This document shows, piece after piece, positions 24,101-58,199 of a stretch of DNA of 64,000 nucleotides; position 1 is the first letter of the stretch; every line of letters starts with the position of its first letter. The stretch comes from Amycolatopsis sp. cg9. GTDB taxonomy: Bacteria; Actinomycetota; Actinomycetes; Mycobacteriales; Pseudonocardiaceae. The stretch is taken from assembly GCF_041346945.1 (NCBI RefSeq), contig NZ_CP166851.1, forward strand, positions 62,001 to 126,000, read 5' to 3'. The translations under genes and the position numbers were made by a program. The notes under the pieces were generated by a model. It made no database searches and was not told the origin of the DNA. It saw nothing but the letters and a program-made list of their open reading frames with translations.

Positions 24101-24173
24101 ACGTCCACATGAGTTGACATCGGCCCGGCAAGCCCTAGTATCGACTCCCGTAGTCGTCAACTCATATGGACGT
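24101..24173 (+). promoter_or_regulatory. Promoter flanked by 18-bp inverted arms (copy 1 of two)
   Basis: TTGACA at 24114-24119 and TAGTAT at 24136-24141 are a good promoter with a 16-base spacer. Left arm ACGTCCACATGAGTTGAC (24101-24118) and right arm GTCAACTCATATGGACGT (24156-24173) are inverted with 17 of 18 positions matching, 37 bases apart. The left arm overlaps the -35 and the right arm lies just after the start point. The same design recurs at 47595-47668. It drives the secreted-protein genes to the right. Confidence 0.7.
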
Positions 24174-24321: not shown

Positions 24322-24711
24322 ATGCCAACCACCAGGCCCAGGAACTCGACACTGACCAGGACCGGGCGCGTGGCGGCCGCGGCCGCCGCGGTCGGCCTGG
24401 CCGCCGTCGGAGCCGGCATCGCCGGCGCCGGGACCGCCGCCGCGTCGGTCGCCGCGTACCCGTGCGGGTACAGCTCGCAGGGGATGGACGCGCACTATCG
24501 CCACTGCGCGGACAGCTTCATCCTCATCCGCGCCGACTGGGACACCGGCACCCACTACACGACCTGCGTCGGTCCGTGGGGCGAGGTGCCGCTCTACCAC
24601 GACGGGCCACACCGCCAGGTCAACGCCTACTACGTGCCCAAGGCCCCGGCGCTGATGCAGAACATCCACGGCGAGTGGATCTGCCGGACCGGCCAGCCGG
24701 ACTGGCCGTGA
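24322..24711 (+). CDS. Secreted small Cys-containing protein (DUF6355-like)
   Basis: 129 residues with GGGAGGGG upstream of the ATG. A Sec signal with a hydrophobic core VAAAAAAVGLAAVGAGIAGA ends near AAAS, so cleavage is expected around residue 42. The ~87-residue mature protein has four Cys (YPCGYSS, RHCADS, TTCVGPWGE, WICRTG) that could form two disulfides. The pattern resembles DUF6355 proteins seen near actinobacterial natural-product genes; this match is from memory and moderate. It is the first gene after the shared promoter. Confidence 0.65.
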   Translation: MPTTRPRNSTLTRTGRVAAAAAAVGLAAVGAGIAGAGTAAASVAAYPCGYSSQGMDAHYRHCADSFILIRADWDTGTHYTTCVGPWGEVPLYHDGPHRQVNAYYVPKAPALMQNIHGEWICRTGQPDWP

Positions 24712-24728: not shown

Positions 24729-24947
24729 GTGCGGGACACCATCATCGCCGTGGCCGCAGACCTGTTCGCCGAGCGCGGCGCCGACGACGTCGGCTTCGAC
24801 GAGATCGCCGCCACCGCCGGGATCAGCGCCCGCCACCTGCGCGTGTACTTCACCTCGACCACGGCCATCCGGGCCGCTGTCGACGCGCACGCGGGCGAGC
24901 ACGAACGGGAGGAGGCAGGCGGTGCCGGCGCGCAGCTGGTCGCCTGA
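24729..24947 (+). CDS. TetR-type DNA-binding domain without ligand domain
   Basis: 72 residues from GTG 24729, preceded by GGGGAGG. The sequence reads as one TetR HTH: AADLFAERGADDVGFDEIAA, then TAGISARHLRVYFTSTTAIR. The usual ~120-residue ligand/dimer domain is absent; the gene ends a few residues after the HTH. GTG 24708, overlapping the previous stop, would add seven residues. It overlaps the thioesterase gene by 26 bases. It may be a repressor fragment that still binds DNA or a remnant. Confidence 0.6.
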   Translation: MRDTIIAVAADLFAERGADDVGFDEIAATAGISARHLRVYFTSTTAIRAAVDAHAGEHEREEAGGAGAQLVA

Positions 24948-25392
24948 CCCGGCCGCGGCCACAGGATGGCTGCGCGGCACGGTCCGCACCGTGCGCTACC
25001 AGGTCACCGCGGCCGACTCGGTGCGGCGGCTGGCCGGGCGCAGCGTCGAGTTCGCCCGCAAGCCTGACGTGGTGGCCTCGGCCCGGTTGCTGGAGCTGTG
25101 CGAGTGGCCCTGCATGGACGCCGTCCGCGACGCCATCGCCCCCGCCGAGTGCAGCCTCGGCGCCCGGCAACACCTCGACCACCAGGCGCCGATCGCCATC
25201 GGCGCCGAGCTCACCATCACCGCGCGGTGCACCGTGGCCACCCACTCCTACAGCGAGTGGGAGGTCGACGTGCACGACGGCCACGAAGTCGTCGGCCAGG
25301 CGACGCTGGCGTTCGTCGTCGTCGACCAGGACACCTTCGAGCGGCAGAGGCTGAGGCCGAAGACGACGTCCGCCATCCCGAAAACCGCGTAA
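24922..25392 (+). CDS. Hotdog-fold thioesterase, FlK-like
   Basis: 156 residues from GTG 24922, with GGGAGGAGG upstream. The hotdog pattern is visible: LLELCEWPCMDAVRDA (central helix), SLGARQHLDHQAPIAIGAEL (strand with His) and WEVDVHDGHEVVGQATLAFV. This matches the thioesterase family that includes fluoroacetyl-CoA thioesterase FlK, with a Glu and His in the positions of the catalytic pair. The acyl substrate is unknown. Overlap with the TetR-like gene means coupled translation. Confidence 0.7.
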   Translation: MPARSWSPDPAAATGWLRGTVRTVRYQVTAADSVRRLAGRSVEFARKPDVVASARLLELCEWPCMDAVRDAIAPAECSLGARQHLDHQAPIAIGAELTITARCTVATHSYSEWEVDVHDGHEVVGQATLAFVVVDQDTFERQRLRPKTTSAIPKTA

Positions 25393-25478: not shown

Positions 25479-25979
25479 GTGAAGACTTTGACTAAGGGGC
25501 GCCGGATGGCGTCGGCGCGGACCTTGGCCGGCGCGGCGCTTGCCGGAATGCTCGCGCTCAGCGCGCTCGCCCTGGACGTGTCCACCGCCGCGGCCAGCCC
25601 GGCGCCGCCCAGCGCGGGACTCGACGCCGGGATGCCCAGCGACGGCCTGCACCCGGATGCCCCGGTGACCGCACCGGACGGCACCCGGATCTGGGGCACC
25701 CGCGAGGGGGCGGCGCCGGCTTCGGTCGCGCGCGCAGCCATGCCCAACACGATCGAGATCCGGGTCGACGGCGCCCGGGTCCGATCCTCGGTGCCGAACG
25801 GGCCGGTCGTCGGACTGGCCTACCGCGGCCAGACCGGCGGCGCGAACTGCAAGGTCTCCAGCGGCGGCTACACCTGGGGATTGGTGTCGGTCAACGGGTC
25901 CTACGGATGGATGCGCACGGACCTCTTCACCATCATCTACCAGAGCACCGGCCCCTGGGGCTCGCTGCCGCGGTGCTGA
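25479..25979 (+). CDS. Secreted SH3-like protein
   Basis: 166 residues from GTG 25479, with GAAGGGG upstream. The signal has a basic start (TKGRRMASARTLAGAAL), hydrophobic core and cleavage near STAAASPAPP. The C-terminal ~70 residues (IRVDGARVRSSVPNGPVVGL; GLVSVNGSYGWMRTDLF) have the look of a bacterial SH3 domain, which often binds cell wall. It ends GSLPRC. Likely exported and wall-associated (inferred). Confidence 0.68.
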   Translation: MKTLTKGRRMASARTLAGAALAGMLALSALALDVSTAAASPAPPSAGLDAGMPSDGLHPDAPVTAPDGTRIWGTREGAAPASVARAAMPNTIEIRVDGARVRSSVPNGPVVGLAYRGQTGGANCKVSSGGYTWGLVSVNGSYGWMRTDLFTIIYQSTGPWGSLPRC

Positions 25980-29043: not shown

Positions 29044-30027
29044 GTGATCGACGGCGACGGCGACCGGCATGCCCACGCGGACGGAGACGATCCGCGCCCG
29101 GACGGCACGACCGACCCGACCACCCCCTCGGGTGCGCGGCACAGACTCGAGCAGCCGCCCGCGGTGACGCGCCGCCGCCGGACCGTGCTCTGGACGCTCG
29201 GCGCGCTGGTCGTCGTCGCCCTCGGCGTGACCGGCTGGACCGTCGCCTCCGGCGGCACGCCGTCGGCCGCGACGAACACGGCCACCGCCACGGCGACCGC
29301 CGCCGTCCATCCCGGCGCCGACGACGGGCCCGCGATCGTGGACCCGCAGCCGGTGAGCCCGCAGCAGCTGAGCCAGCTGCCCGCGGCCACCACCTTCGGC
29401 ACCGTCGCCGCCGCACTGAAAGACCCAGCCCCGGGCCAGGCGCCCGGCGGCCGGCTGGTGCACCCCTCGACCACGGTGCCGCTCTACGCCTCGCCCGGCG
29501 GCCCGGCCATCGCCGCGCTGCCGCCCACGCAGCTGGTCAGCGACACCTGGCTGCCGGTGGTGGCAGAGCAACCCGGCTGGGCGGAAGTCCTTCTGCCCTC
29601 GCGCCCCAACGACACCGCGGCCTGGATCTACCTCGACGACACCGTCACCACCGCGCACAGCCCGTACCGCATCGAGGTCGACCGCGCACGGTTCACGCTG
29701 ACGCTGTTCAAGGACGGCAAGGAGACCGGGCACTGGACGGTCGGCATCGGCAAGCCGAACTCGCCGACCCCGGCCACCCGCACGTTCCTCCTCGCGTCCA
29801 TTAAGGACACTCACCCGACTTTCAGTCCGATTGTGCTGCCGACCGGCGCGCACTCCGACACCTACGAGTCCTACGGCGGCGGTCCCGGGACCGTCGGCCT
29901 GCACACGTGGCCGAGCGCAGACGTCTACGGCCACCCCAGTTCTGACGGCTGCATCCGCATTCCGCCGGATGCGCTTCAGGTGATCAGCAGCGACGTCCCG
30001 ATCGGGTCACCGGTGCTGATCAGGTGA
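29044..30027 (+). CDS. L,D-transpeptidase (YkuD domain), membrane anchored
   Basis: 327 residues from GTG 29044, with AAGGAGG upstream. One transmembrane helix (VLWTLGALVVVALGVTGWTV) follows a cytoplasmic N terminus. A linker and an SH3-like stretch (VPLYASPGGPAIAAL) precede the YkuD domain from ~210. The active site holds His287 and Cys303 in SSDGCIRIP; the common SHGC is SDGC here. These enzymes make 3-3 cross-links in peptidoglycan or attach proteins to it, outside the cell. Location among secreted genes suggests wall modification linked to mating, which is inferred. Confidence 0.88.
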   Translation: MIDGDGDRHAHADGDDPRPDGTTDPTTPSGARHRLEQPPAVTRRRRTVLWTLGALVVVALGVTGWTVASGGTPSAATNTATATATAAVHPGADDGPAIVDPQPVSPQQLSQLPAATTFGTVAAALKDPAPGQAPGGRLVHPSTTVPLYASPGGPAIAALPPTQLVSDTWLPVVAEQPGWAEVLLPSRPNDTAAWIYLDDTVTTAHSPYRIEVDRARFTLTLFKDGKETGHWTVGIGKPNSPTPATRTFLLASIKDTHPTFSPIVLPTGAHSDTYESYGGGPGTVGLHTWPSADVYGHPSSDGCIRIPPDALQVISSDVPIGSPVLIR

Positions 30028-38535: not shown

Positions 38536-39783
38536 TCACCGCGCGCGCGGGGTGTCGCCGGGGCTGTCGTGCGCGGCCGTGACCGCTGCGCGGCCGCGCA
38601 GCGCGGCGACGTCGGGGTCGCGGCGCAGCATGGCGGCGACCTGGATCAGCCAGCGGGCCTCGGCGAGCAGGTCCGGCGTGGCGGGGGAGTGCTGTGGCAT
38701 GACGACGTCGACGACTTCGGGATGGTGTCGTCGCCCGGCCCGGTAGGCGTCGAGGGCGGCGCCGAGCTCGGCTGCTTCCAGCAGGACGTCTCCGGCGACG
38801 GGGCTCAGGCCGCGTTCGCGGGCGGCTGCCAGCGCCCAGCCCGGGATCTGCGGCGGGATGTAGGGCCGCAGCGCCAGCTGTGCGTCGCGGATCTCCAGCG
38901 TGCGGCGGTAGAGCCGGTACTCGGTGCGTTCGGCGCGGGTCAGCCGTCCCTGCTCGGGCTCGTCCAGCTGCACCTGCGGCATCACCTCCTCGACCACCTG
39001 CCGCCACAGCGGGGTCAGGCGCCGGGTGGCGTGCCACACCTGCCAACGGACCGGCAGGTTGCGCAGCGCTGGCCACCAGCTGGTGAAGGTGGCGCCGGCC
39101 GTGCCGACGCCGATCGAGAGCAGGGCCAGCCCTTCGGCGATCTCCGCCTGCAACGGCAACGCGTGGCCGGTCACGGCGAGCACCACCACCCCCGCGCCCT
39201 TCCACGCCGCCCACACCAGGCCGAGGATGGCTGCGCCCAGGACGATGCGGAAACCGGTGCGCAGCAAGGGGTGCAGTTCGCGGGCGCGCACGTAGCGGCG
39301 CATCAGCGCGAGGAAACTGATCAGGCCCCAGCTCATGAAGGCCACGTACAGCGTCAGGTAGGCGACGATCCGCGGGTCGCGGCCGTAGGTGGCCGCGAAC
39401 TGCGGGGTGTAGTCGGTGTCGGCCAGCGCCAGCAGGATGGCCATCGCTGCGACGCAGCCGGCCAGCGCGGCCGCGCTGATCACCGACCGGCGCCGGGCGT
39501 CCGGTCCGGCGCCGGCGTGGTTGAGCACGCCGATCAGGCAGAAGGCCGCGCCCATCGCCAACGCGTTGCCCAGCAGCCGGACGCTGTTGTCCACCGGCTC
39601 CAGCCACCGTGCGGCTGCCAGCGTCGCCGGCGCGGTCACCGCCAGCGCGAGCGCGAAGCACACCATGGCGGCCACCAGGTACTTCCGGCTCGTGCTCATC
39701 GAGATGCCGCGGGTACTGAGGATCTTGGCCGCCGCGCCGGCCAGGGTGAGTGCCGAACAGAGGTAGGCCAGCAGGTCAACCAC
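38536..39783 (-). CDS. MAB_1171c-type multi-pass membrane protein
   Basis: 415 residues from GTG 39783, overlapping the ImmA/IrrE gene by eight bases. Six to seven transmembrane helices fill residues ~5-245 (DLLAYLCSALTLAGAAAKIL, YLVAAMVCFALALAVTAPAT, YLTLYVAFMSWGLISFLALM). A ~165-residue cytoplasmic region follows (YRLYRRTLEIRDAQLALRPY; EARWLIQVAAMLRRDPDV). This is the organisation of the MAB_1171c family, called putative transporters and normally paired with an ImmA/IrrE protease and an XRE regulator. Its function is unsettled. Confidence 0.75.
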   Translation of the reverse strand: MVDLLAYLCSALTLAGAAAKILSTRGISMSTSRKYLVAAMVCFALALAVTAPATLAAARWLEPVDNSVRLLGNALAMGAAFCLIGVLNHAGAGPDARRRSVISAAALAGCVAAMAILLALADTDYTPQFAATYGRDPRIVAYLTLYVAFMSWGLISFLALMRRYVRARELHPLLRTGFRIVLGAAILGLVWAAWKGAGVVVLAVTGHALPLQAEIAEGLALLSIGVGTAGATFTSWWPALRNLPVRWQVWHATRRLTPLWRQVVEEVMPQVQLDEPEQGRLTRAERTEYRLYRRTLEIRDAQLALRPYIPPQIPGWALAAARERGLSPVAGDVLLEAAELGAALDAYRAGRRHHPEVVDVVMPQHSPATPDLLAEARWLIQVAAMLRRDPDVAALRGRAAVTAAHDSPGDTPRAR

Positions 39784-40348
39784 GCCGGCCGCCGGCCCGG
39801 ACCGGGTGGCCGAACGCGGACTCCAGCCCCACCAGGCCGTCACCGTGCCGCCGTCGTGGTGTGAGACCGCGATAGGCGTCCCGGGTCGAGCTGATCCGGG
39901 AGAGCACCAGCGATGCGAACAGCTCCGCCTCGCGCTCCTGGTTGGTCGCGTAGACGGTGCGGCCCAGGATGCGGCGAACAAGCGCCGGCGACAACGTGGG
40001 CAGCAGCAGCCGCAGGGCGTCGTCCCCGGCCACCCGCGGCGCCTCGCCGCAGTCCGACATCGAGGTGCAGTGGTCGAACAGCAGATGGCCGACCTCGTGC
40101 ATCACCGTGTGCTGGGACTGCAACGGAGACACGTTGCTCGCGCAGTAGATGTAGTCGATCTCGGTGGTGCTGATCAGCATCCCGCACGGCTGGTCGGCGC
40201 CCAGCCGTCCGGGGATCAGCTGGATCTTCTTCCCCCGCTTCTCGGCCAGGGAGGCCAGGAAGTGGTCGATGTCGAACGGACGCGGAATGACCAGGGTGTC
40301 GATCAGTTCTTCGCACCGTGTGGCCATGTCCTGCACGGCGGTACTCAA
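39776..40348 (-). CDS. ImmA/IrrE-family metallo-endopeptidase
   Basis: 190 residues from TTG 40348, preceded by GGGGAGG. The zinc motif HEVGH lies in HTVMHEVGHLLFDHC, with the third acidic ligand probably in QEREAELFASLVL. The N-terminal helix and strand (KIQLIPGRLG) fit the family. ImmA/IrrE proteases cut XRE-type repressors to switch genes on. The membrane-protein gene overlaps its end, so both are made together. The expected XRE partner is not adjacent; the repeat-rich region upstream may be where such a repressor binds. Confidence 0.85.
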   Translation of the reverse strand: MSTAVQDMATRCEELIDTLVIPRPFDIDHFLASLAEKRGKKIQLIPGRLGADQPCGMLISTTEIDYIYCASNVSPLQSQHTVMHEVGHLLFDHCTSMSDCGEAPRVAGDDALRLLLPTLSPALVRRILGRTVYATNQEREAELFASLVLSRISSTRDAYRGLTPRRRHGDGLVGLESAFGHPVRAGGRRG

Positions 40349-47066: not shown

Positions 47067-47510
47067 CTACTCCGCCTTCGCGGCGCGGCCTTCCCCGCCG
47101 GACTGGTTGGCCTGGAGGGTGCGCATCAGCTCCAGGACCTGTTCCCGGTGGGCCGGGGTGAGGCTCAGCGCGCGCAGCGCCACCGAGTGCACGTCGGCGT
47201 CGCGCAGCGCCACCACCAGATCAAGATCGGCCTGGATCTGCCGGGACTTCTCCGAGTCGAAGAAGATCGCCGGATCGACCTCGAAGAAGGCTGCGATCGC
47301 CTCGAGGTGCCCCTTGGTCGGGTTGTCCGCGATTCCCGCGCGCAGCTGGCGCATGTACTCCTTGGAGAAGGTCTTCGTCGGGTGGCGCTCCTTCAGCCAG
47401 GCCGCGCACCACTTTGCGACGTGTTCCATGGAGTGCTCGCTGCCGTTGGACCGCGTCACCGTCTTGAAGAGCTTGTCGATGATCTCCGCGAGCGTGGATG
47501 CCTCCGCCAT
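47067..47510 (-). CDS. EspR-like XRE regulator
   Basis: 147 residues from ATG 47510, with GGAGG upstream. The organisation matches mycobacterial EspR: a divergent N-terminal HTH (LAEIIDKLFKTV, then FSKEYMRQLRAGIADNPTKG), the segment HLEAIAAFFEVDPAIFFDSE, and a C-terminal helical dimerisation region (LVVALRDADVHSVALRALSL; REQVLELMRTLQ). EspR is a nucleoid-associated regulator of the ESX-1 secretion genes. Here the gene diverges from a type IV secretion operon, with an arm-flanked promoter between them. Control of that promoter is inferred. Confidence 0.75.
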   Translation of the reverse strand: MAEASTLAEIIDKLFKTVTRSNGSEHSMEHVAKWCAAWLKERHPTKTFSKEYMRQLRAGIADNPTKGHLEAIAAFFEVDPAIFFDSEKSRQIQADLDLVVALRDADVHSVALRALSLTPAHREQVLELMRTLQANQSGGEGRAAKAE

Positions 47511-47594
47511 GGCAACCCGCCTCCTCGTCTGTCCGGGAATCTTCTCGACGGTCCGTAACCGCCCGGTCGCCAAACATAGGTGATCGAGCCCGAT

Positions 47595-47668
47595 ACGTCC
47601 ACATCAGTTGACATCTTGGCGGCTGGGCATATCCTCTGTCTAGCAGGGACGGCAACTGATATGGACGT
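47595..47668 (+). promoter_or_regulatory. Promoter flanked by 18-bp inverted arms (copy 2 of two)
   Basis: TTGACA at 47608-47613 and TATCCT at 47630-47635 share the 16-base spacing of copy 1. Left arm ACGTCCACATCAGTTGAC (47595-47612) and right arm GGCAACTGATATGGACGT (47651-47668) are inverted with 16 of 18 matches, 38 bases apart. The central G of the copy 1 left arm is C here, and the right arm changes to match. It drives the type IV operon. Confidence 0.72.
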
Positions 47669-48244: not shown

Positions 48245-49642
48245 GTGCCCACCGTGAACAGCGAACCCTTGGGAAACAACGGGTTCCGTCGCCTCGTTGG
48301 CACCGTGCCCTTCGACGCCGACGCCGGGCAGCGGCCCGACGAGCAGGCCGCAAGGCCCGCCCCGCAGCAGGGGCCCATCGACCATCCGCCGTCGAGCACC
48401 ACCTCGCCGGCAAGCCTGGGGCGCCCGGCCGGTCTCACCCTCCGGCCGGGCGCTCCACCACCCGTGCCCGTCGCGACGTCGCCGGCGGACACGAATCCCA
48501 CGACACCGGTGCGCACCGCCACGCCCCCCGGTGGGCCGCCGATGCCACTCGCCGGGCCGGCCGCCGCGCCGGCTGAACCCGAGGGACTGCGCACCCTCGA
48601 GGCCGAGCTCGCGCAGGCCGCCCGGCGAACGTGGGCCCAACTTCCGGCGGCCGACGTCGCCGCGGCTGTGGAAGCGGGGACGATCTCCGCAGCCACGCAG
48701 GCGTCCGAGGAGCTGACCGCCACCCGCGCCGGGCAGCCGCTCGTCGGCGATCAGCCCGCCCCGCCCGGCGGCGCCGCGCACGCGGCGACCATCGAGGTCG
48801 CGGCCGCCGCGGCAGCGATCCAGCGCCAGGGCCTGCCGCCCACGGCGACCGACCCGGTGGACTGGAGCGGCTTCGGCACGGTCATCCCCGTGCTGGCCGG
48901 TTCGCCCGGCGCCGGTGCCTCGGTCCTGGCCGCGGTGCTGGCCGACGTCCTCCAGCTCGCGCAGCTGCGGGTGCTGCTGGTCGACCCGGCCGACCCGCCG
49001 CGCTCCGGCCTGGCCGCCGCCACCCGCTCGCTGGGCCCGTGGCTCGCGCACCCGCACCCGCATGTGCACATCCGCTTCTCGTGGCGGGCGCAGGCCCTGC
49101 TGGCGCGGCTGGAGACCAGTCTTCCGGTCCTCGCGCCGGGCATGGTGCCGCCGCCCCGCTTCTGGCACCCGCCGGTGCAGCAGCTGCACGCCACCGTGGT
49201 CGATCTCGGCCACGACCCGTGGCGGGTCACCGCGCACCCGCTCTCGGGCGCCGGGGCGTGGCTGCGCCGCGGTACCCCGCAGCCCCGCCCGGTGCTGGTG
49301 GTGCGCCCCAGCCGCCCGTCGCTGCTGCACGCCGAACAGGTCCTCGCCCGGCTGGACCACTGGATCTCCTGCGCCGCCGCGGCCGCTCCGGCGCAGCTGG
49401 TGGTGATGGGCGCCAAGCGCTGGCCCGACGGGGTGGCCGGCGCGGCCGGACGACGAGTCAGCGCCCTGCTGGACGAAGCGGTGTTCCTGCCACACGACCC
49501 CGATCTCGCCGCGGCCGGCGTCACCGCCGCGGTCACTCCGCCCCGGCTGCGGCAGGCGATCACGCCGGTGCTGCGCCGCTGGGGCCTGCTGCCTGACACC
49601 GCCGGCAAGAGCAGGCGGTCGAGTACGAGGGGGCGCTCATGA
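48245..49642 (+). CDS. MinD/ParA-like protein with degenerate P-loop, type IV operon
   Basis: 465 residues from GTG 48245, with GGGAGGAGG upstream. The first ~170 residues are Pro/Ala-rich and probably disordered. The remainder resembles a MinD/ParA-type fold (VIPVLAGSPGAGASVLAAVL, LRVLLVDPADPPRSGLAAA). The P-loop reads SPGAGAS where K-G-G-x-G-K-T/S is expected, so the ATP-contacting lysines are missing. It is the first gene of the secretion operon. A structural or regulatory role is more likely than ATPase activity (inferred). Confidence 0.55.
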   Translation: MPTVNSEPLGNNGFRRLVGTVPFDADAGQRPDEQAARPAPQQGPIDHPPSSTTSPASLGRPAGLTLRPGAPPPVPVATSPADTNPTTPVRTATPPGGPPMPLAGPAAAPAEPEGLRTLEAELAQAARRTWAQLPAADVAAAVEAGTISAATQASEELTATRAGQPLVGDQPAPPGGAAHAATIEVAAAAAAIQRQGLPPTATDPVDWSGFGTVIPVLAGSPGAGASVLAAVLADVLQLAQLRVLLVDPADPPRSGLAAATRSLGPWLAHPHPHVHIRFSWRAQALLARLETSLPVLAPGMVPPPRFWHPPVQQLHATVVDLGHDPWRVTAHPLSGAGAWLRRGTPQPRPVLVVRPSRPSLLHAEQVLARLDHWISCAAAAAPAQLVVMGAKRWPDGVAGAAGRRVSALLDEAVFLPHDPDLAAAGVTAAVTPPRLRQAITPVLRRWGLLPDTAGKSRRSSTRGRS

Positions 49643-49935
49643 TCGAGCACTTCGAGACCGTGATGTTCCTGGCCCAGCAGATTCCCAACCCCGGCCCGGC
49701 CGAGCCGCCCGGCGCCAAAGAGATCCTGGGCGTGGTCAGCAACGTCAAGTGGGCGGCGGGAATCGCCCTGCTGGTCGGCTTCTTCGCCGGGCTGGTGGTG
49801 TGGGCCGGCGGGCGCTGGATCGACCACCACCGCGCGGGCCGCATCGGCTTGATCATGATGCTCTGCGCCATCGGCGGCGGCCTGCTCTACGGCATCGGCT
49901 GGCAGGTCATCAACCACTTCGCCGGCGGTCAGTGA
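49639..49935 (+). CDS. Small two-helix membrane protein, pilin-like position
   Basis: 98 residues, ATG overlapping the previous stop. Two membrane helices (WAAGIALLVGFFAGLVVWAG and IGLIMMLCAIGGGLLYGIGW) are separated by a short basic loop. The size and topology are like VirB2/TrbC-type subunits, and the gene lies early in a type IV operon as virB2 does. The sequence itself gives no further proof. Confidence 0.6.
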   Translation: MIEHFETVMFLAQQIPNPGPAEPPGAKEILGVVSNVKWAAGIALLVGFFAGLVVWAGGRWIDHHRAGRIGLIMMLCAIGGGLLYGIGWQVINHFAGGQ

Positions 49936-50765
49936 TGACCGAGAGCCCGACGGAGGACACCCAGGCCCGCAAGAAGGCCGGGCTGACCCTGACCGGGGTC
50001 CTGGTCGCCGCGATCGTGCTGATCGGGGGCGTGATCGCGGTCGTGGTCGCGCACTACGTCACCGCTCCGGCGCCGGCGCCGCGCGCACCGGGCGCCACCA
50101 CGCCTCCGGCCGTGGCGACGAGCACGTCCGGCGCCGGCGGCGCGGCCGAGGAGAACGCGCTGGCCGCCCAGCCGATGGTGCAGCTGCCCGCCCAGGCGGC
50201 GCAGCCGCAGGCGATGACGACCGCGACGGCGGGCCCGGCGATCACCGTGCCCAAGCCCACCGTCACCACCGGTCGCTGGATACCGGGTGGGTTTCCCGGC
50301 ACGCCCGAAGGCGCGCTCGGCCAGCTCAAGGCCCTGGACGAAACCGCGATGACGGCCGCGGATCCGCAGGTCTACGCCCGCGGCTACCGCGAACTCGCCG
50401 AGTCGGGCGCGCCTGATCCCGGCTCGACCGGGCTGGCGTCGCTGCTGACCAGCATGCGCGCGCGAGCCCAGCTGCCCGCCACCGGCTCGGTGACCGGGCT
50501 GAGCGCGACCTACCAGGTCACGCACGGCCAGATCAAGGGCACGGCCTCGGGCGGGCGCTACGTGGTGGCGTGCGTACTCGGGCAGTTCTCGGTGGGCGTC
50601 AACGGCCAGCTCGTCAGCGTCGGAGTCGGTGACTGCCAGGCGATGCGCTGGACCGGCTCGGACTGGCGGATCGCCTCGGCCGCGCTGGCCGCGCCGGCGC
50701 CGAGCGCGTGGCCGGGCAGCGCGGACGCGGTCAAGGCCGGCTACCGCGAGCTGAGCGGGAGCTGA
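49935..50765 (+). CDS. Membrane-anchored periplasm-side protein, TcpC/VirB8-like position
   Basis: 276 residues; ATG shares one base with the previous stop (TGATG). One N-terminal transmembrane helix (LTGVLVAAIVLIGGVIAVVV) is followed by a Thr/Ala/Pro linker and an extracytoplasmic domain (~170-276; GSVTGLSATYQVTHGQIKGT, MRWTGSDWRIASAA). This topology is that of VirB8/TcpC/Orf13-type scaffold proteins. Assignment rests on topology and operon order. Confidence 0.6.
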   Translation: MTESPTEDTQARKKAGLTLTGVLVAAIVLIGGVIAVVVAHYVTAPAPAPRAPGATTPPAVATSTSGAGGAAEENALAAQPMVQLPAQAAQPQAMTTATAGPAITVPKPTVTTGRWIPGGFPGTPEGALGQLKALDETAMTAADPQVYARGYRELAESGAPDPGSTGLASLLTSMRARAQLPATGSVTGLSATYQVTHGQIKGTASGGRYVVACVLGQFSVGVNGQLVSVGVGDCQAMRWTGSDWRIASAALAAPAPSAWPGSADAVKAGYRELSGS

Positions 50766-50771
50766 GCGCAG

Positions 50772-52148
50772 ATGTGGCCTTTCGACGACATCGGCTCCTC
50801 CATCGGCGATTCGATCAAGGGCATGATCGCCTCGGCGTTCGAGGCCGCCATGCAGGCGATCTGGGACGCGAGCCTGTTCGTGCTGCGCGGCGCCTTCTCC
50901 CTGGCCGACCGGTTCTCGGTGTTCAGCGTCAGCACCACCGAGGGCCCGATCTCCATCTTGTGGCCGATGATGCTGTGGATCTCCGGCGTCCTCGCGCTCG
51001 GGCTGTTCTTCTGGCAATTGATCATGACGAACCTGCGCGGCGGCCGCGGGTTCATGCGGCTGGTCGTCGGGCCGGTGCAGTACGGCATCGCCCTGGCGGT
51101 GACCGTGGGCATGGTCGCGGCGTTCCTCGCCGGCACGGACGCGCTGACCGAGGGCATCCTCAACTACGGGTTGCAGTCGAAGAACTTCACCGACGCGCTC
51201 AACCACACCAGCTTCGGTGACAGCGTCGTTGACGGCGTCAAGGCCATCGTGCTGGGCATCTGCGCGTTCGTCGGCGTGATCCCCGCGGCGATCGGCTACA
51301 TCCTCGAGATGTTGTTCCGCGAGGCGGCGATCTACGTCCTCGTGGGCACGGTGCCGATCGCCGCGGCGGGGCTGCTGGCGAACGTCACCTCGCACTGGTT
51401 CTGGACTCCCTGCCGCTGGTGCCTGGTCTGCATCGCCATGAAGCCGGTGCTGAGCCTGGCACTGGTATTGGGCGTGGCGATCGCCGGCGGCGCGCAGGGC
51501 CTGTCCGGTCTGCTCGCCGGCGTCGGCGTGCTGATCATCAGCTTGTTCTGCCCGTTCGTGTTGTTCCGGTTGTTCGCCTTCATCGACCCGAACTCCGATG
51601 CCGGCGCCGCGTTCCGCGACGCCCTGTCCGGGATCGGCGTCGACTCCTACGGCGCGAACAACCCCGCGATGATGGCCGCCGGCGCCGTCGGGGGCAGCGG
51701 TGGCGGCGGGGCGATCGAGGACGCCAACACCGGCCGGTTCGACGAGGCGGTCGCCGACCACGCCGAGAACTCCATGGACGAGTCCGGCGTCGGCCGAGGC
51801 TCCGAGGGCGGCTCCGAGTCCGACAGCGACAGCGACACCTCCAGCCCTGACCAATCCGGCGACGACGGCGTCGGCGGCGGAGGCAGCAGCTCCGGCGGAG
51901 GCGGCGAGCTGCCGCCGGCGAACTCCGGATCGGTCGTGTCCTCCAGCCGCGACAGCGGCCCATCGGGTGACTACAGCAACGACAGCACCGGCGGCGACGG
52001 CGGCGATCCGCCCCCGCCCGAGCCGCCCGGCGGCGGCGGAACGCCCTCACCGCACGGCGGAGGCGGCGGTGGGCCCAGTTCCGGTGGCGGCGGCGGAGGC
52101 ACCGCCAGCGAAGCAGAAGAAGCAGAGGAAGCGGCGGTGATCGCATGA
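50772..52148 (+). CDS. VirB6/TrbL-like polytopic membrane protein
   Basis: 458 residues. Six or so transmembrane helices lie between ~60 and ~280 (WPMMLWISGVLALGLFFWQL, GPVQYGIALAVTVGMVAAFL, LSGLLAGVGVLIISLFCPFV). The last ~150 residues are a Gly/Ser/Asp-rich low-complexity tail. VirB6/TrbL proteins form the inner-membrane channel of type IV systems and share this layout. The stop overlaps the next ATG. Confidence 0.72.
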   Translation: MWPFDDIGSSIGDSIKGMIASAFEAAMQAIWDASLFVLRGAFSLADRFSVFSVSTTEGPISILWPMMLWISGVLALGLFFWQLIMTNLRGGRGFMRLVVGPVQYGIALAVTVGMVAAFLAGTDALTEGILNYGLQSKNFTDALNHTSFGDSVVDGVKAIVLGICAFVGVIPAAIGYILEMLFREAAIYVLVGTVPIAAAGLLANVTSHWFWTPCRWCLVCIAMKPVLSLALVLGVAIAGGAQGLSGLLAGVGVLIISLFCPFVLFRLFAFIDPNSDAGAAFRDALSGIGVDSYGANNPAMMAAGAVGGSGGGGAIEDANTGRFDEAVADHAENSMDESGVGRGSEGGSESDSDSDTSSPDQSGDDGVGGGGSSSGGGGELPPANSGSVVSSSRDSGPSGDYSNDSTGGDGGDPPPPEPPGGGGTPSPHGGGGGGPSSGGGGGGTASEAEEAEEAAVIA

Positions 52149-53650
52149 CGACGCCTCGGATCTACCGGGGACTCAACCGGCGCGAGCACGCGGGCTGGAT
52201 CATGGGGCTGACTCCGGTGCAGGCCCTGGTGTGCATCCTGCTCGCGGTCCCGGTGCTGTGGACCATCTCCGACGGCAGGTTCACCGACGCCGCAATCCTG
52301 CTGCTGATCTGCGGGACGATCGCGGCCCTCGTGGTAATCCCGGTCCGCGGCCGTCCGGCGTTCCGCTGGTTGCTGCACCTGGTGCTGTTCCAGGTCGGGA
52401 TCGTCACCGGCTGGTCGCGCTGGCAGTCCAAGGCCGCCGCCGGCGCGTCCGTCGACCCCAACGAGCCGGATCTGCCCGGCGTGCTCCAGCGCGTCGACTT
52501 CCCCGACGGCCCGCAGTTCAAGGACGCCGGCCGGGTGTGCCTGATCCACGACACCGGGGACGGCCGGTGGGGCGCCACCGCGCGCCTGACCCACTCCGGG
52601 GTGGGGATGCTCTCGGACGAGCAGTGCGAGCGCTTGGCCCACCGCTTGGGCAACCTGCTGCTGTCGCTGGGGCACCGCGAGGTCATCGACCGGATGAGCC
52701 TACTGGTGCGCACCGTGCCCGACGACGGCACCGAGTACGAGGTGTGGCGCAGCGACCACGAGGTCACCGACGCGCCGCGGCTGGCGCGCCAAGCCAGCTA
52801 CGAACTGGACCGCACCATCGGCAACGTCAGCGTCCGCCACGAGGTGTTCGTGACGGTCAGCGGCCCGGAGGACAAGCTGCGCAAGCCGGCCGCGGCGGCC
52901 GGCGGCGGCGTCGCCGGGCGCGCGCTGGCGCTGTACCGGGTGCTCGACGGCCTGGAGGATCCGCTCAAGGCGCTCGGTGCCCGCACCGTGGAATGGCTCG
53001 ACGGGCCGGGCATGGCCGAGGCGCTGCGTACCGGGTTCAACCCCGCGGCGCGGGCGGTGCTGGCCACCGCACACGAACGCGGCACCGGCGGCCGCGGGCT
53101 GGAGAAGGCGGCGGCCGGGCCGACCGCGGCGCCCTCGCCGTCGGCGCGGGCCTACACCCACGACGGGTTCACCACGGTCTCCTACAGCGCGCTGATGCCG
53201 GAGGCGGGCACGGTCTTCGGCAGTCTCGGGCCGCTGTTGGCGGTGCGCACCGCCGGGGAGCGGCGCACGCTGGCGATCCACTACGAGGTCCTGGACTCCC
53301 GCCGCGCGCATCGTGCGGTGCAGGGCAACCGGTTCCGGTCCAACGTGATGACCGACTGGAAGCGCAGCAAGGGTTTCAACACCACGGCGATGGACGAACG
53401 GGAGGCCAGCGGCGCCCGCGCGCAGGAGCGTGCTGTCGCAGCCGGGCACTCGGTGGTCCGCTTCGCCGTCGCGGCCTCGGTCACCGTCCCCAGCACGTGG
53501 AACGTCGAGGACCACGCCGCCCGCCTGGAGAACGACGCGAGCGGCCGGTTCCGGCTGCTGCGGCTGGATTTGGCGCAGGACTCGACGTTCGTCGTCGCGG
53601 TGCTGCCGGTCGGGATCGGGCTGCCCCGCCAGCGGGGAGGTCTGCTGTGA
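52145..53650 (+). CDS. SCO6880-type type IV secretion protein
   Basis: 501 residues, ATG overlapping the previous stop (ATGA). The N terminus has a PrgI-like opening (YRGLNRREHAGWIMGLTPVQ) with two membrane helices (ALVCILLAVPVLWTIS; AAILLLICGTIAALVVIPV). A large soluble part follows, resembling the N-terminal domain of VirB4 (ELDRTIGNVSVRHEVFVTVS). Proteins of the SCO6880 type always precede a VirB4-like ATPase in actinobacterial conjugation clusters, as here. Confidence 0.8.
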   Translation: MTTPRIYRGLNRREHAGWIMGLTPVQALVCILLAVPVLWTISDGRFTDAAILLLICGTIAALVVIPVRGRPAFRWLLHLVLFQVGIVTGWSRWQSKAAAGASVDPNEPDLPGVLQRVDFPDGPQFKDAGRVCLIHDTGDGRWGATARLTHSGVGMLSDEQCERLAHRLGNLLLSLGHREVIDRMSLLVRTVPDDGTEYEVWRSDHEVTDAPRLARQASYELDRTIGNVSVRHEVFVTVSGPEDKLRKPAAAAGGGVAGRALALYRVLDGLEDPLKALGARTVEWLDGPGMAEALRTGFNPAARAVLATAHERGTGGRGLEKAAAGPTAAPSPSARAYTHDGFTTVSYSALMPEAGTVFGSLGPLLAVRTAGERRTLAIHYEVLDSRRAHRAVQGNRFRSNVMTDWKRSKGFNTTAMDEREASGARAQERAVAAGHSVVRFAVAASVTVPSTWNVEDHAARLENDASGRFRLLRLDLAQDSTFVVAVLPVGIGLPRQRGGLL

Positions 53651-55152
53651 GCCGGCGCGGTCACCGGGAGCGCAGCGCGGCGCAGCTGCTCGGCGACTTC
53701 GGCGCGCCACCGGCGACCAGGCCCCGGCAGGAGCCGCAGCGCCGCAGCCGGGACCGGGTCAACCGGGCGATCGCGCCGCGCCGCGGCCGCGCCCGCCCCG
53801 GTGAGGGATGGTCGCCGGTCGAGGCGCCGATGGCGGTCTACCAGGCCGCCACCTCCGAGATCGGCGGCTTGTTTCCCTTGCTGGCAGCCAATGGCATTCC
53901 CGCGGTCGGCGCGCGCATCGGCTACGACACGCTCTCGGGTGGCGCGTTCTACGCCCACCCCATCGAGTGGGTGCTGCGCGGCCTGGCGACCAACCCCAAC
54001 CTCGTCATCTTCGGCGAGCCGGGACGCGGCAAGTCCAGCACGGTCGTGGCGTTTCTGCTGCGGATGATGCTGTTCGGCATCAAGACGCTGATCTCCGGCG
54101 ACGTCAAGGGCGAGTACAGCCCGCTGCTGCGGGCACTGGGGATCACGCCGATCGCGCTGGGCCGCGGCAGTTCCGCCCGGCTCAACGCGCTGGATCTCGG
54201 GCCGCTGCGCAGCCGGTGGGGCGGCTGGACGGTGACCCGGCAGCGTGAAGAACTCGCCGGCGTGCTGGGCCGGTGGGTGAAGCTGCTGGTCGCGCTCGCC
54301 GAGGCGCAGGGCTACCGCCCGACCGTCACCGACGAGGCGGTCCTCTCGGCGGTGCTGCGGCGGCTGGTCGGCGTCGACGACGGCTACACCCAGCTGCGCC
54401 CGGTCACCATCCCCGACGTGCAGCGCGAGCTGGCTGAGCCGGACGACGCGCTGTGGGAGGCCACGCGATTCGCCGGCCGCCGCCAGTTCCTCGACACCCT
54501 GCGCCCGATCACCGACGCGCTGGGCAACCTGATCAACGGGCCGCTCGCGGGCTTGTTCGACCAGGAGACGAACTTCGAGCTGGACTGGGACGCCCCGGTG
54601 CAGTCGATGGACCTGTCGCTGCTGCGCTCGCGCGGCGACCAGGCAATCGCCGTCGCGCTGACCTGCCTGGGTTCCTGGTCGTCCATGGTCACCGACCTGC
54701 AAGACGACGGCGAGATCCGCATCGTCGTGCGCGACGAGGTGTGGCGGCAGATGCGGCTCGGGCTGCGCGCGGTGCAGGCCGTCGACTCGGACCTGCGGCT
54801 CTCGCGCGCCGAGCGCAAGATCCAGATCTTGGTCATGCACAAGCCGTCCGACCCGCTGTCGGTCGGCGCGGCCGGGTCGCAGGAAGTGGCGATCGCCAAG
54901 GACCTGCTGGCGTTGTGTAGCACCCGGATCCTGTTCGGCCAGTCCACGCGGGTGGCCGACGAGCTGGCCGAGGACTTCGCGCTGTCTGAGCGCGAGCAGG
55001 ACGTCACCACCGGGTGGGCCATGGAGCGCACCGGCCGGGCGCTGTGGAAGATCGAGAACAACCCGGGCTACAAGGTCCAGACCGTCCTGTCGCGCACCGA
55101 GCGCAAGATCTTCGACACCAACGCGCAGCTGCGCGCCCGGCGGGACGGGTAG
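53647..55152 (+). CDS. VirB4-like conjugation ATPase
   Basis: 501 residues, GTG inside the previous stop. Walker A is GEPGRGKS at 123-130 and Walker B IRIVVRDE ends at 364; the usual V-D-E is R-D-E here. YQAATSEIGGLFPLLAANGI and LISGDVKGEYSPLLRALGI are typical of VirB4/TraC C-terminal motors. The N-terminal half of a normal VirB4 appears to be in the preceding SCO6880-type gene, so the two together replace one long VirB4. It powers assembly and transport at the inner membrane. Confidence 0.87.
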   Translation: MSRRGHRERSAAQLLGDFGAPPATRPRQEPQRRSRDRVNRAIAPRRGRARPGEGWSPVEAPMAVYQAATSEIGGLFPLLAANGIPAVGARIGYDTLSGGAFYAHPIEWVLRGLATNPNLVIFGEPGRGKSSTVVAFLLRMMLFGIKTLISGDVKGEYSPLLRALGITPIALGRGSSARLNALDLGPLRSRWGGWTVTRQREELAGVLGRWVKLLVALAEAQGYRPTVTDEAVLSAVLRRLVGVDDGYTQLRPVTIPDVQRELAEPDDALWEATRFAGRRQFLDTLRPITDALGNLINGPLAGLFDQETNFELDWDAPVQSMDLSLLRSRGDQAIAVALTCLGSWSSMVTDLQDDGEIRIVVRDEVWRQMRLGLRAVQAVDSDLRLSRAERKIQILVMHKPSDPLSVGAAGSQEVAIAKDLLALCSTRILFGQSTRVADELAEDFALSEREQDVTTGWAMERTGRALWKIENNPGYKVQTVLSRTERKIFDTNAQLRARRDG

Positions 55153-55158
55153 GCCGCC

Positions 55159-56322
55159 GTGGGGATCGGGGCGGCCAAGGGACCGCTGTTCGCCGGCGCC
55201 GCCGCGGCCATCTACGTGGTCGTGGTGATTCCGGCGCTGCTGGTCGGCACCGTGCTGATGGCCTCGCAGTCCAGCGCCATCGGCATCACCACGGCCGCGG
55301 CGGTGGAGTGCTCGCCCTACCAGTTCGCCGACTACGGCAAGGGCGGCGGCACCCAGGAGATCGGCGACGAGAAGTTCCACGCCGAGCAGCTGGCCAACGC
55401 CCAGACCATCGTGGCCGTCGCCGTGCAGCGCAAACTGCCCAAGCGGGCCGCGGTGCTCGCGCTGGCCACCGCGATGGTCGAGTCCGAGCTGCGCAACCTC
55501 AACTACGGCGACCGGGACTCGCTCGGGCTGTTCCAGCAGCGGCCCAGCCAGGGATGGGGCAGCCCGGAGCAGATCCTCAACCCCGTCTACGCGGCGGGCA
55601 AGTTCTACGACCACCTCGTCGCGCTGCCCGGCTGGCAGACCATGCCGCCCGGCGCGGCTGAGCAGGCGGTCCAGCGCTCCGGGTTCCCTGATCGCTACGC
55701 CCCGCGCGAGCCCGCGGCCGCGGGACTGACCGAGCGGTACTGGCAAGGGCCCGACAACCCGACCCCGCCGCCCGTCACGGACCCGGTGCAGCAGGTCGAC
55801 TTCTCCGCCAGTGCCTGCCCGGACAAGGGGCGCGGCAAGCTGCGCGACGACGGCAAGCTCGACCCGAAGAAGCTGCCTCCGGACTTCACGCTGCCCACGG
55901 ACCCGAAGCTCGCCGCCGCGGTGACCTACGCGCTCGCGCAGCTGGGCAAGCGGTACGTGTGGGGCGCGGAAGGCCCGGACGCGTTCGACTGCTCCGGCCT
56001 GATGCAGGCCGCCTGGGCGCACGCCGGCGTCGCGATCTCGCGTACCACGTCCACCCAGGTCCACGACGGCGTCGCCGTCGGCTCCCTGTCCCAAGTTCAG
56101 CCCGGGGACCTCGTGTTCATCCCGGGCGCCGACGGCACCCCCGCCAATCCGGGCCACGTCGGGATGTATGTCGGCAACGGCTACATGGTCGACGCCTACG
56201 ACGACGACCACGGCGTCATCCTCACGACCCTGGAGTCGTGGGTGCCCAAGGTGGTGGCAATCCGGCGGGTCGCGGTCGGCAACAACGGACAACCGCCACC
56301 AGGAGGTGACCCGCGGGTATGA
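55159..56322 (+). CDS. Peptidoglycan hydrolase: transglycosylase-like plus NlpC/P60
   Basis: 387 residues. A membrane helix (AAAIYVVVVIPALLVGTVLM) is followed by a lytic-transglycosylase-like region (~90-170; ALATAMVESELRNLNYGDRD, GLFQQRPSQGWG), then an NlpC/P60 domain from ~260. The latter has Cys278 in FDCSG and His333 in GHVGMYVG. The first part cuts glycan strands and the second cuts stem peptides, as VirB1-type enzymes do to open the wall for a conjugation channel. The stop overlaps the next gene. Confidence 0.88.
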   Translation: MGIGAAKGPLFAGAAAAIYVVVVIPALLVGTVLMASQSSAIGITTAAAVECSPYQFADYGKGGGTQEIGDEKFHAEQLANAQTIVAVAVQRKLPKRAAVLALATAMVESELRNLNYGDRDSLGLFQQRPSQGWGSPEQILNPVYAAGKFYDHLVALPGWQTMPPGAAEQAVQRSGFPDRYAPREPAAAGLTERYWQGPDNPTPPPVTDPVQQVDFSASACPDKGRGKLRDDGKLDPKKLPPDFTLPTDPKLAAAVTYALAQLGKRYVWGAEGPDAFDCSGLMQAAWAHAGVAISRTTSTQVHDGVAVGSLSQVQPGDLVFIPGADGTPANPGHVGMYVGNGYMVDAYDDDHGVILTTLESWVPKVVAIRRVAVGNNGQPPPGGDPRV

Positions 56323-58199
56323 GGAACACCGTCTCGCCGACCGCCGACCGCGACCTGGCGCTGATGGGCGTGTTCGTGGCTCTGCTCGGCGTGCTCGCCG
56401 CGATCGCCGCCGCCCTGATGCTCGGCGCTGCGGTGACCACCAGCCTGCTCGGCGGGCCCTGGTCGATGCCCGGCGTCGACAGCTGGCTGGCCGGGGTGTT
56501 CGGGGTGCTCAGCCATCCCGGCAGCCCCGGCGCGGGCCTCGGGCAGCCGTGGGCGAGTGCCCTGACCGGCCAGGGCGGCTGGTACTGGACGATCACTGCG
56601 GTGCTGCTCGTGGTGGCCACCGGCCTGGTGTTGCTGGTGGCCGTGCCGGCGTGGCGGCGGTTCGGGCCGTCGCAGGCCGGGCACGCCAGCCGCGAGGATA
56701 TCCGCGAGGAGCTGTCGCTGACCGCGGCCCGGCGCACCGCGGAGTGGACCCGGCCGGGCCTGCCGCGGGCGCAGGCGCTGCGGGCGCCGCTGGAGGAGGT
56801 CGCCGCGCCCCTGCACCTGTCCCCGCAGCGGCAGCCGATGTGCACGCCGTTGGAGAACCCCACCGGCACGCTCGCCCCCACCCAGAGCGGAAAGTCGCGG
56901 CGGGACTTGGTGCACAAGGCGATCGCGGCGCCGGGGGCGCTGTTGTGCAGCACGACCAAGCCGGATCTGCTGGAGTTCAGCGGGCTGCTGCGGGCGGCGC
57001 GCTACCAGGCTGGCCCGGTGATGGTCGCCGACGTGACCGGCGCGGTCCCGTGGCCGGCGCAGGTGCAGTGGCTGCCGATGCAGGGCTGCGAGGACACCAC
57101 GGTGGCCTTCCGCCGGGCGCACACGATGGTCGAGGCCGCCTCGGTCGGGCTGGCCGGGGTGGGCGGCAACGACAAGGTGTTCCGGGACCGGGCCAAGGTG
57201 GTGCTCCAGGCGTACTTCATCGCCGCGGCCATCCACCACCGCGGCGTCGACGACCTGGTGCGGTGGGCGATGAGCAAACCGGTCGACCAGGAGCCGGTCA
57301 AGTTGCTCCAGCAGGCCGGGTTCGCCGAGCACGCCCGCAACCTGCGCTCGGAGATCGGGATGGTCGCCGAGACCTCCGACGCGGTGTGGATGAGCGTGCG
57401 GCGGGTGATCGAGCCGTTCATGGACCCGCAGATCCGGCGGCTGTGCACGCCGGCGCCGGGCCGCGACTTCGACGTGCGCGCGATGATCGCCCAGCACGGG
57501 TCGCTGTACCTGGTCGCCGGGCAGCACCAGGCCGCCCAGGCCGCGCCGATCCTGACCGCGCTGGTCGAGCACTGGCTGACCACCGCGCAGGAGATGGCCC
57601 TGCACACCCCGCACCGGCGCCTCGACCCGCCGGCCACCGCGATTCTGGACGAGATCACGAATGCGACGCCGGTCCCCTCCATCCCCGACATCGTCTCCGA
57701 CTCCGCGGGCCGGGGCGTGCTGATCCACTGGGGCGCCCAGTCGGTGGCCGCGCTGGAGAACACGTTCACCGCGCAGCGGACCCGGCAATTGCTGGACAAC
57801 ACCACGACATTGAGCGTGTGGGGCGGCATCAAGGACCGTGTGACGCTGGAGTGGGTGTCGCTGCTGACCGCGCACCACGAGCGGCGGCGCTTCCAGCAGC
57901 AGAACGACGGCCTGTTCAGCCAGGGCCGCACGTCGGTGGGTCTGGAGACCGTGCCCACCTACCGGCCCGGCGACGTCCGGCGGGTCCGCCGCGGCCGGGT
58001 CCTGGTGATCCACCGCCACCTCGACCCGATCCTCGCCCTCACCCTCGACGTGCGGAACCGGCCCGACTGGAAGGTCATCCGCGAGCACGTCCAGGCCGTG
58101 CGCGACGGGCAGGTCCCGGTCGGGCCGGACGGGTTCGCCCTCGCGCCCACGCTGAGCACCACGCCCGGCGCCGGCCAGCCGGGGAGGTTCACGGCGTGA
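56319..58199 (+). CDS. TraG/VirD4-type coupling protein
   Basis: 626 residues. Two N-terminal membrane helices (LALMGVFVALLGVLAAIAAA; WTITAVLLVVATGLVLLVAV) are followed by the TraG/TraD ATPase: Walker A TQSGKS at 188-193 and Walker B TAILDEI with Asp444-Glu445. SVWGGIKDRVTLEWVSLLT is the TraM-recognition-type end. Coupling proteins link the relaxase-DNA complex to the channel. No relaxase is encoded in the window, so the substrate must be provided elsewhere. Confidence 0.87.
   Translation: MRNTVSPTADRDLALMGVFVALLGVLAAIAAALMLGAAVTTSLLGGPWSMPGVDSWLAGVFGVLSHPGSPGAGLGQPWASALTGQGGWYWTITAVLLVVATGLVLLVAVPAWRRFGPSQAGHASREDIREELSLTAARRTAEWTRPGLPRAQALRAPLEEVAAPLHLSPQRQPMCTPLENPTGTLAPTQSGKSRRDLVHKAIAAPGALLCSTTKPDLLEFSGLLRAARYQAGPVMVADVTGAVPWPAQVQWLPMQGCEDTTVAFRRAHTMVEAASVGLAGVGGNDKVFRDRAKVVLQAYFIAAAIHHRGVDDLVRWAMSKPVDQEPVKLLQQAGFAEHARNLRSEIGMVAETSDAVWMSVRRVIEPFMDPQIRRLCTPAPGRDFDVRAMIAQHGSLYLVAGQHQAAQAAPILTALVEHWLTTAQEMALHTPHRRLDPPATAILDEITNATPVPSIPDIVSDSAGRGVLIHWGAQSVAALENTFTAQRTRQLLDNTTTLSVWGGIKDRVTLEWVSLLTAHHERRRFQQQNDGLFSQGRTSVGLETVPTYRPGDVRRVRRGRVLVIHRHLDPILALTLDVRNRPDWKVIREHVQAVRDGQVPVGPDGFALAPTLSTTPGAGQPGRFTA

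Follow-up and report, generated by a model that had tools for sequence, protein, structure and literature searches.

What reads the two matched modules at 24101 and 47595 of the window, and which genes may be controlled through them? By the window we mean the whole stretch of DNA that was analyzed, 64,000 nt corresponding to positions 62001-126000 of the replicon C2. A preliminary description had singled out these modules, each with a TTGACA box, a 16-base spacer and 18-bp inverted arms separated by 37 or 38 bases, as a link between an island of secreted proteins and a type IV secretion (T4SS) operon. The layout was confirmed in full, with inter-arm gaps of 37 bp (24101-24118/24156-24173) and 38 bp (47595-47612/47651-47668), and with the following parts:

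24101..24118, plus strand: left operator arm ACGTCCACATGAGTTGAC, overlapping the -35 box TTGACA (24114-24119)
24136..24141, plus strand: predicted -10 box TAGTAT, 16 bp past TTGACA
24156..24173, minus strand: right operator arm ACGTCCATATGAGTTGAC, inverted, 55 bp from the left arm start to start
47573..47578, minus strand: predicted -10 box TATGTT of the leftward espR-like promoter, 17 bp from TGGACG (47596-47601, within the left arm)
47595..47612, plus strand: left operator arm ACGTCCACATCAGTTGAC, carrying the -35 box TTGACA of the T4SS operon (47608-47613) and, on the minus strand, the -35 box TGGACG of the espR-like gene
47630..47635, plus strand: predicted -10 box TATCCT of the T4SS promoter, 16 bp past TTGACA
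47651..47668, minus strand: right operator arm ACGTCCATATCAGTTGCC, inverted, 56 bp from the left arm start to start

The half-site pattern ACGTCCAYATSAGTTGAC, with up to 3 mismatches allowed, matched the window four times against 0.06 matches expected from 100 dinucleotide shuffles, none of which reached four. A scan of the whole genome with 0-2 mismatches placed nine sites at five loci of C2 (185,872 bp):

22590/22644: inverted pair, 54 bp start to start
86101/86156 (window 24101/24156): inverted pair, 55 bp start to start
109595/109651 (window 47595/47651): inverted pair, 56 bp start to start
153704 and 153720: direct repeats, 16 bp
156504: single site

A scatter of copies over the chromosome, named in the preliminary description as a point against a dedicated operator, did not appear: the scan of the whole 10.45-Mb contig C1 (10,451,212 bp, taken as the chromosome) gave no site at up to 2 mismatches. 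Its three matches carried 3 mismatches each, and at the same looseness the reversed control gave two in the genome. The broader pattern TYCAYNTNAGYTRAY matched C2 six times and C1 once (reversed control 0). The computations thus support an operator-like site common to the secreted-protein island and the type IV operon, but two modules before two units was too narrow a picture, since outside the window there are further sites before the relaxase gene, before an accessory gene and before another gene cluster. The reading that we favor, and consider likely, is that five operator regions, the two modules among them, serve a plasmid-wide conjugation regulon governed by an EspR-like repressor and an M78-like antirepressor.

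Related elements were sought in 390 genomes of the family, 22 of which contained a match with at most one mismatch (reversed control 5/390). Inverted pairs, defined by at most one mismatch per arm or by a weaker partner arm found in a matrix scan, occurred in six of them, namely G000 (the genome of the window), G068, G074, G174, G206 and G383. A weight-matrix scan of the stretches fetched for these six elements gave 39 sites scoring at least 18, a count that takes in weak copies in G206 and includes four pairs of 16-bp direct repeats. Their column counts describe a 20-bp pseudo-palindrome, ACGTCCAYATSAGTTGACRT, with columns 3, 5, 7 and 12-16 invariant (39/39). All 12 inverted pairs are spaced 54, 55 or 56 bp, which corresponds to 5.14-5.33 turns at 10.5 bp, and a distance of about 5.2 helical turns would place both arms roughly on one face of the DNA. 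Because the reversed control itself matches 5 of the 390 genomes, isolated matches in the other 16 of the 22 genomes were not counted as evidence. Five of these 16 were scanned by matrix, giving single sites in G072 (at a gene boundary within a chromosomal gene run), G098, G153 and G216 and two direct sites 53 bp apart in G147; G216 was used as evidence because its site sits upstream of an EspR-like gene. At the level of the order, matches were found in 8 of 397 genomes and a pair in G000 only, and tblastn found no EspR-like gene among the 116 loci listed from a loose-pattern scan. In blastn against PLSDB the first module had no match and the second matched two Streptomyces records, in the XRE gene only. 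The six elements share descent, so the six co-occurrences do not count as six independent events.

The preliminary description had also read a G/C difference between the arms of the two modules, each answered by the matching complement, as compensating changes that implied a dimeric binder or a paired structure. The change and its complement are present in the two modules, but there is no such pattern across the 12 pairs. The arms agree at that base in 8/12 pairs (permutation p 0.31, six elements), and within pairs the arms share 183 identical positions, the permuted mean being 185.9 (p 0.87, 12 pairs). Covariation was rejected, as arms within a pair are no more alike than arms from different pairs. 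Complementary 18-bp arms with one matched base difference might be thought to fold into an RNA or cruciform hairpin. This is hardly credible when the arms do not covary and other copies of the 18-mer stand alone or form direct repeats at 16 bp. With the predicted -35 box inside it, the left arm precedes the predicted transcript, which cannot then include both arms, and an RNA hairpin was rejected on this arm position and on the single and tandem copies.

The position of the sites relative to promoter-like boxes bears on how they may act. TANNNT is the usual actinobacterial -10 form, and its background rate at one of four spacers was 0.0032 (random positions, genic ones included). A pair lies between the divergent T4SS operon and espR-like gene in 6/6 elements, and in these six pairs the TTGACA of the left arm is followed by TATCCT or TAAGCT at a spacer of exactly 16 (6/6), while in the leftward direction the TGGACG of the same arm is followed by TANNNT at 17 or 18 bp (6/6). 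On the boxes only, overlapping divergent promoters are predicted with both -35 boxes in the left arm (6/6); the inverted pair overlaps the espR-like gene's own predicted promoter in all six elements, and the right arm falls just past the predicted T4SS transcript start. The leftward box is absent from the seven other pairs, G216 included. Three of these seven have the rightward box at 16: the 24101 pair of the window and the pairs at 2712165 in G206 and 20389 in G174, the latter two with the -10 box TAATAT at the same spacer as the window pair. The C2:22590 pair has a rightward box only at 19, and a rightward -10 box at 14-19 bp is lacking from two pairs in G206 and from the one in G216.

Since the left arm holds both predicted -35 boxes in 6/6 elements, a single dimer there would cover both and would be likely to repress. 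The distal tandem site of the relaxase unit includes TAGTGT, TAATAT or TAGTAT, possibly as a -10 box. The sites overlap the -35 box, the -10 box or the interval between them, depending on the unit, and this fits blocking better than activation from a fixed position. We therefore regard it as unlikely that the EspR-like protein binds the sites and mainly activates the conjugation genes, or acts either way by site position. M. tuberculosis EspR is described as an activator or a repressor by position in the available part of its report (PMC3315491), and the single site before the 156582-type gene, lying between a possible -10 box and the -35 region and off the consensus -35, would suit such a role. 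In the six T4SS pairs, on the other hand, one site contains the predicted -35 box and the second lies just downstream of the predicted start, and the distal tandem sites before the relaxase gene contain the TANNNT box, all of which speaks for the repressor.

The genes behind the two modules of the window are given below. Genes were called with a home-made caller based on codon-position G+C, not a published program, and sites were placed with BLAST as well.

24322..24711, plus strand: DUF6355 protein (Pfam E 2.3e-14), first gene after the 24101 pair
24729-24947: TetR-N fragment, after the DUF6355 gene
24922-25392: FlK-type thioesterase, after the TetR-N fragment
25506-25979: predicted protein, after the thioesterase
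48668..58199, plus strand: T4SS operon with ParA/CpaE-like (start uncertain), small membrane, VirB6-like, SCO6880-like, VirB4-like, NlpC/P60 and VirD4/TraG proteins

In the T4SS operon the NlpC/P60 and TraG matches are above the curated cut-offs, the names VirB6 (TrbL E 0.012), VirB4 (AAA_10 E 0.019) and CpaE come from matches below them, and SCO6880 is what Pseudonocardia plasmid records call the corresponding gene. The DUF6355 protein (24322..24711) is apparently secreted, judged by eye, and in G174 homologues of the thioesterase and of the 25506-25979 protein (53% and 36% identity) are directly behind the operator pair. Outside the window, sites precede the gene for a MobF relaxase (TrwC Pfam E 1.4e-75): 16-bp tandem sites lie 13-16 bp before its start codon in four elements and one weak site lies 17 bp before it in G206, while no relaxase homologue was found in 40 of the 45.6 kb of the G174 contig. 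A homologue of C2:156582 stands behind a single site in five elements and a homologue of C2:22298/21135 behind a site in G000 and G206, while the G206 pair at 2712165 yielded no target gene. In the six elements, most sites sit a short way ahead of gene starts, many with promoter-like boxes, and in many other genomes EspR-like genes have similar sites upstream (see below). Both facts make it very improbable that the sites are centromere, recombination or transfer-origin repeats, a role for which one could point to their dispersal over the replicon and to the tandem copy just before the relaxase gene.

Three further observations concern these surroundings. A CTGAATCG stretch at C2:153767-153774 (minus strand), about 80-90 bp upstream of the MobF relaxase start, is matched upstream of the relaxase gene in G068 (with one base different), G074, G206 and G383 and is possibly part of a transfer origin. 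A pro-kumamolisin-type protein and two L,D-transpeptidases are encoded near operator-linked clusters (window 27048-28955 and 29044-30027; L010:346-1068), consistent with cell-wall remodelling. C2 also encodes a DpdA-like protein (DeoxyPurine in DNA protein A; L009:13522-14415, Pfam E 7e-58), hinting at 7-deazapurine DNA modification on the plasmid.

The candidate binder is encoded next to the second module:

47067..47510, minus strand: EspR-like XRE regulator of 147 aa, proposed to bind all nine sites

No Pfam or NCBIfam model matched this protein, which by sequence and predicted fold is an EspR homologue. Phmmer against the PDB matched residues 4-132, which take in the HTH and the C-terminal part, to EspR 3r1f (E 1.3e-10), a fold search gave EspR 3qf3 (E 9.9e-7), and all 15 PDB matches at E <=0.001 were EspR chains; the AlphaFold2 model has a pLDDT of 80.5, with a less confident C-terminal half and a full-length rmsd of about 6. 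Among the 390 genomes, close relatives were found only in the six with inverted pairs, at 64-78% identity depending on the method and at 66% or more in the comparison across the 390; the next-best protein, at 46% identity, is that of G216. There, a perfect site and a weak arm 55 bp away lie upstream of the EspR-like gene. The genes listed within 9 kb of it include no T4SS homologue, and the fetched 20 kb no homologue of VirB4, VirD4 or the relaxase.

EspR-like regulators are common, being encoded in 199/390 genomes at E <= 1e-10, and their upstream regions were searched for related sites. With the element matrix, a site scoring at least 12 was found in 24 of 64 such regions (24 of 30 loci, the six elements left out, plus 40 further stretches) against 3 of 1,280 base shuffles, a count that takes in G216 and close orthologues. 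A distant set was made up of 42 dissimilar regions upstream of other EspR-like genes (39-52% identity), with G216 left out. In this set the broader half-site TYCANNNNAGYTRAY, at no more than one mismatch, was found 67 times against 0.64 in base shuffles; at least one match was present in 33/42 regions (0.98 in shuffles) and none in 9/42. Inverted pairs at 54-56 bp, with up to 2 mismatches, occurred in 8/42 regions against 0.01 in shuffles, and an inverted spacing of 32-34 bp was likewise common (9/42). Loci L196, L212, L235 and others have three sites upstream of their EspR-like genes, arranged as + (about 55 bp) - (about 33 bp) +. A comparison of recognition-helix residues with half-site bases yielded no clear rule.

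The T4SS genes can be found without the site. VirB4 relatives at least 68% identical occurred in 21 of 150 genomes searched, 18 of them without a site at up to one mismatch; the other three are G000 and G206 with pairs and G153 with a single site. Ten sister T4SS stretches, one of them on C1 of the same genome, contain no exact match to the broader half-site, and their best matrix scores, 17.7 and 16.6 (both in L274, unpaired), compare with at least 18 for the element sites. Four whole Pseudonocardia plasmids, of eight with VirB4 at 73-78%, have no site at up to 3 mismatches; their best EspR-like proteins are 22-34% identical, and one plasmid has none. As site and T4SS come apart both ways, the presence of the site is tied more closely to the EspR-like gene than to the T4SS. 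Partial exceptions are G153, which has a T4SS element (VirB4 70%) and one strong isolated site 22 kb from VirB4, and G147 (L180, G147:C76), where the end of the contig cuts off the two direct sites, which are 53 bp apart; neither has a close EspR-like protein.

These two exceptions would agree with a different binder, either another element protein (156582-type or 154360-type) or a host factor, for which the EspR-like gene is merely one target, and homologues of 156582 and 154360 are indeed near sites in 5/6 elements, G000 included. Still, the 20 kb fetched for G216, where a pair precedes the EspR-like gene, encode no homologue of either protein, many other EspR-like genes have related sites upstream, and a host factor would be expected to have chromosomal sites, of which there are none at up to 2 mismatches. 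We consider such a binder improbable. The EspR-like XRE protein (47067-47510), whose binding to both arms the preliminary description had suggested testing, is the best candidate and, on these genomic associations, most likely the binder of the sites.

Nine regions of the regulator-less sisters were searched for an inverted pair of their own before the T4SS, and this idea was dropped, as L272-L279 never exceeded the maximum of 20 base shuffles. L280 has a 17/18-bp inverted repeat, 31 bp apart, in the interval that separates an EspR-like gene (33% identity) from the T4SS operon of G252, about 625-675 bp ahead of the T4SS start; it is possibly the operator of that element. The second T4SS element of G000, on C1 (L276, C1:9328001-9348000; VirB4 73% identical), has no operator in the fetched 20 kb and carries homologues of the following two genes beside its T4SS:

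38536..39783, minus strand: MAB_1171c-family putative transporter (NCBIfam E 2.2e-58, above the cut-off), third member of the espR-M78-MAB trio
39776..40348, minus strand: M78 (ImmA/IrrE)-like protein with the motif HEVGH, candidate anti-repressor (Pfam Peptidase_M78 E 0.0097, below the curated cut-off)

HExxH is a zinc-protease motif, and ImmA is an M78-type peptidase. The M78 assignment of the 39776-40348 protein is weak: among the four homologues scanned, three matched Pfam M78, every one below the cut-off (G206 E 0.0014 and G174 E 0.023, with no match for G216), and the PDB gave no useful match. An M78-like homologue is found in all six elements, 0.6-7 kb from the espR-like gene and at 58-70% identity outside G000, which suggests derepression of the ImmR/ImmA type. 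MAB_1171c homologues are also present in 6/6 elements, several as partial alignments and in G206 as a fragment only. Of 24 loci (L189-L212), which include many close orthologues, 22 have an M78-like gene no more than 1.5 kb from the EspR-like gene and 21 have MAB_1171c beside it. Homologues of both stand before or beside the T4SS genes in 7/10 sister stretches, several of which have a different divergent open reading frame. Between the M78 and espR-like genes of the window lies a gene for a LuxR-type STAND-like regulator (42369-44792; GerE, AAA_22 and TPR matches), a possible extra sensor, and in G074 a 35%-identical protein is encoded beside the espR-like gene.

In the regulon that we favor, a dimer of the EspR-like XRE protein would bind the 20-bp pseudo-palindrome, and dimers on the two inverted arms, on about the same face of the DNA, would enclose the promoter and block RNA polymerase. 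The T4SS operon, the relaxase gene, the DUF6355/thioesterase cluster and two further units would thereby be kept off, and the regulator would limit its own synthesis. The M78-like protease encoded nearby would probably inactivate the regulator and so switch mating on, as ImmA does to ImmR. The sites, their positions and spacing, the promoter-like boxes, the conservation and the association with EspR-like genes were computed; from these we infer binding by the EspR-like protein, repression over activation (from site position), a tetramer or loop, and the protease step (by analogy only). More tentatively, and with rather less than even confidence, we suggest that the EspR-like repressor, the M78-like protease and the MAB_1171c membrane protein form a gene trio widespread in the family and captured by conjugative elements as a mating switch, in which the membrane protein, on sensing a signal from outside, would allow the protease to destroy the repressor, the paired operators 54-56 bp apart being a signature of the regulator family.

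A repressor/protease switch for conjugation is already known, and an EspR-type regulator as its repressor would be new. Among open-access titles and abstract openings, with the subscription literature mostly uncovered, none described an EspR-like regulator of actinobacterial conjugation or this operator. Control of conjugation by relaxase and T4SS in actinobacteria is little covered in the literature as far as it was available, which treats Bacillus, Enterococcus and the FtsK-type actinobacterial route. The analysis supplies a defined operator together with candidates for the master repressor and the anti-repressor, all open to direct test, and EspR-like regulators, a common family here (199/390 genomes), gain a DNA motif.

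The closest parallel to the proposed switch is ICEBs1, where ImmA cleaves ImmR and where, in the accessible part of the account (PMC6540685), the element encodes a master repressor and a metalloprotease anti-repressor and conjugation is off by default. The likeness here is one of gene content, including a HTH regulator gene adjoining the transfer genes on a conjugative element. Differences from ICEBs1 are the EspR-like nature of the putative repressor, the actinobacterial element with its MobF relaxase, and the MAB_1171c-family membrane protein that accompanies the regulator-protease pair.

With Rco of the Bacillus plasmid pLS20 the system shares overlapping divergent promoters, two operators and a proposed cooperative bridging. 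According to the portion of that report at hand (PMC4207663), a 75-bp loop is backed by a half-turn insertion test. The spacing of 54-56 bp in 12/12 pairs is compatible with looping of this type, although short loops normally require bent DNA (PMC4207663), which we count against the model. The pLS20 operators are 75 bp apart and have several motifs each, whereas 36-38 bp separate single 18-bp arms here, and the layout recurs in three inverted pairs on C2.

In actinobacterial AICEs, too, conjugation is controlled by element-encoded DNA-binding proteins, KorSA and Pra, and small XRE genes are noted on Frankia AICEs in the excerpted source (PMC3218068). KorSA is of the GntR type and transfer of the FtsK/SpoIIIE type (PMC3218068), in contrast to the EspR-like XRE protein, T4SS and relaxase of the present element.

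To M. tuberculosis EspR itself (PDB 3qf3, 3r1f) the regulator is related in sequence and predicted fold. In the available text (PMC3315491), EspR forms a dimer able to pair with a second dimer, a proposed dimer of dimers, binds an inverted repeat upstream of its own gene and is thereby autoregulated, and activates or represses by position. EspR differs in its consensus, TTTGC[TC][GA], which by eye is absent from the 20-bp consensus of the 39 sites with its TCCA-N4-AGTTGAC motif, a mismatch that speaks against the model, and in its hundreds of chromosomal sites, against nine plasmid sites here (PMC3315491). An M78 partner is not mentioned in that text (PMC3315491), while an M78-like gene is linked to the EspR-like gene in the elements described here.
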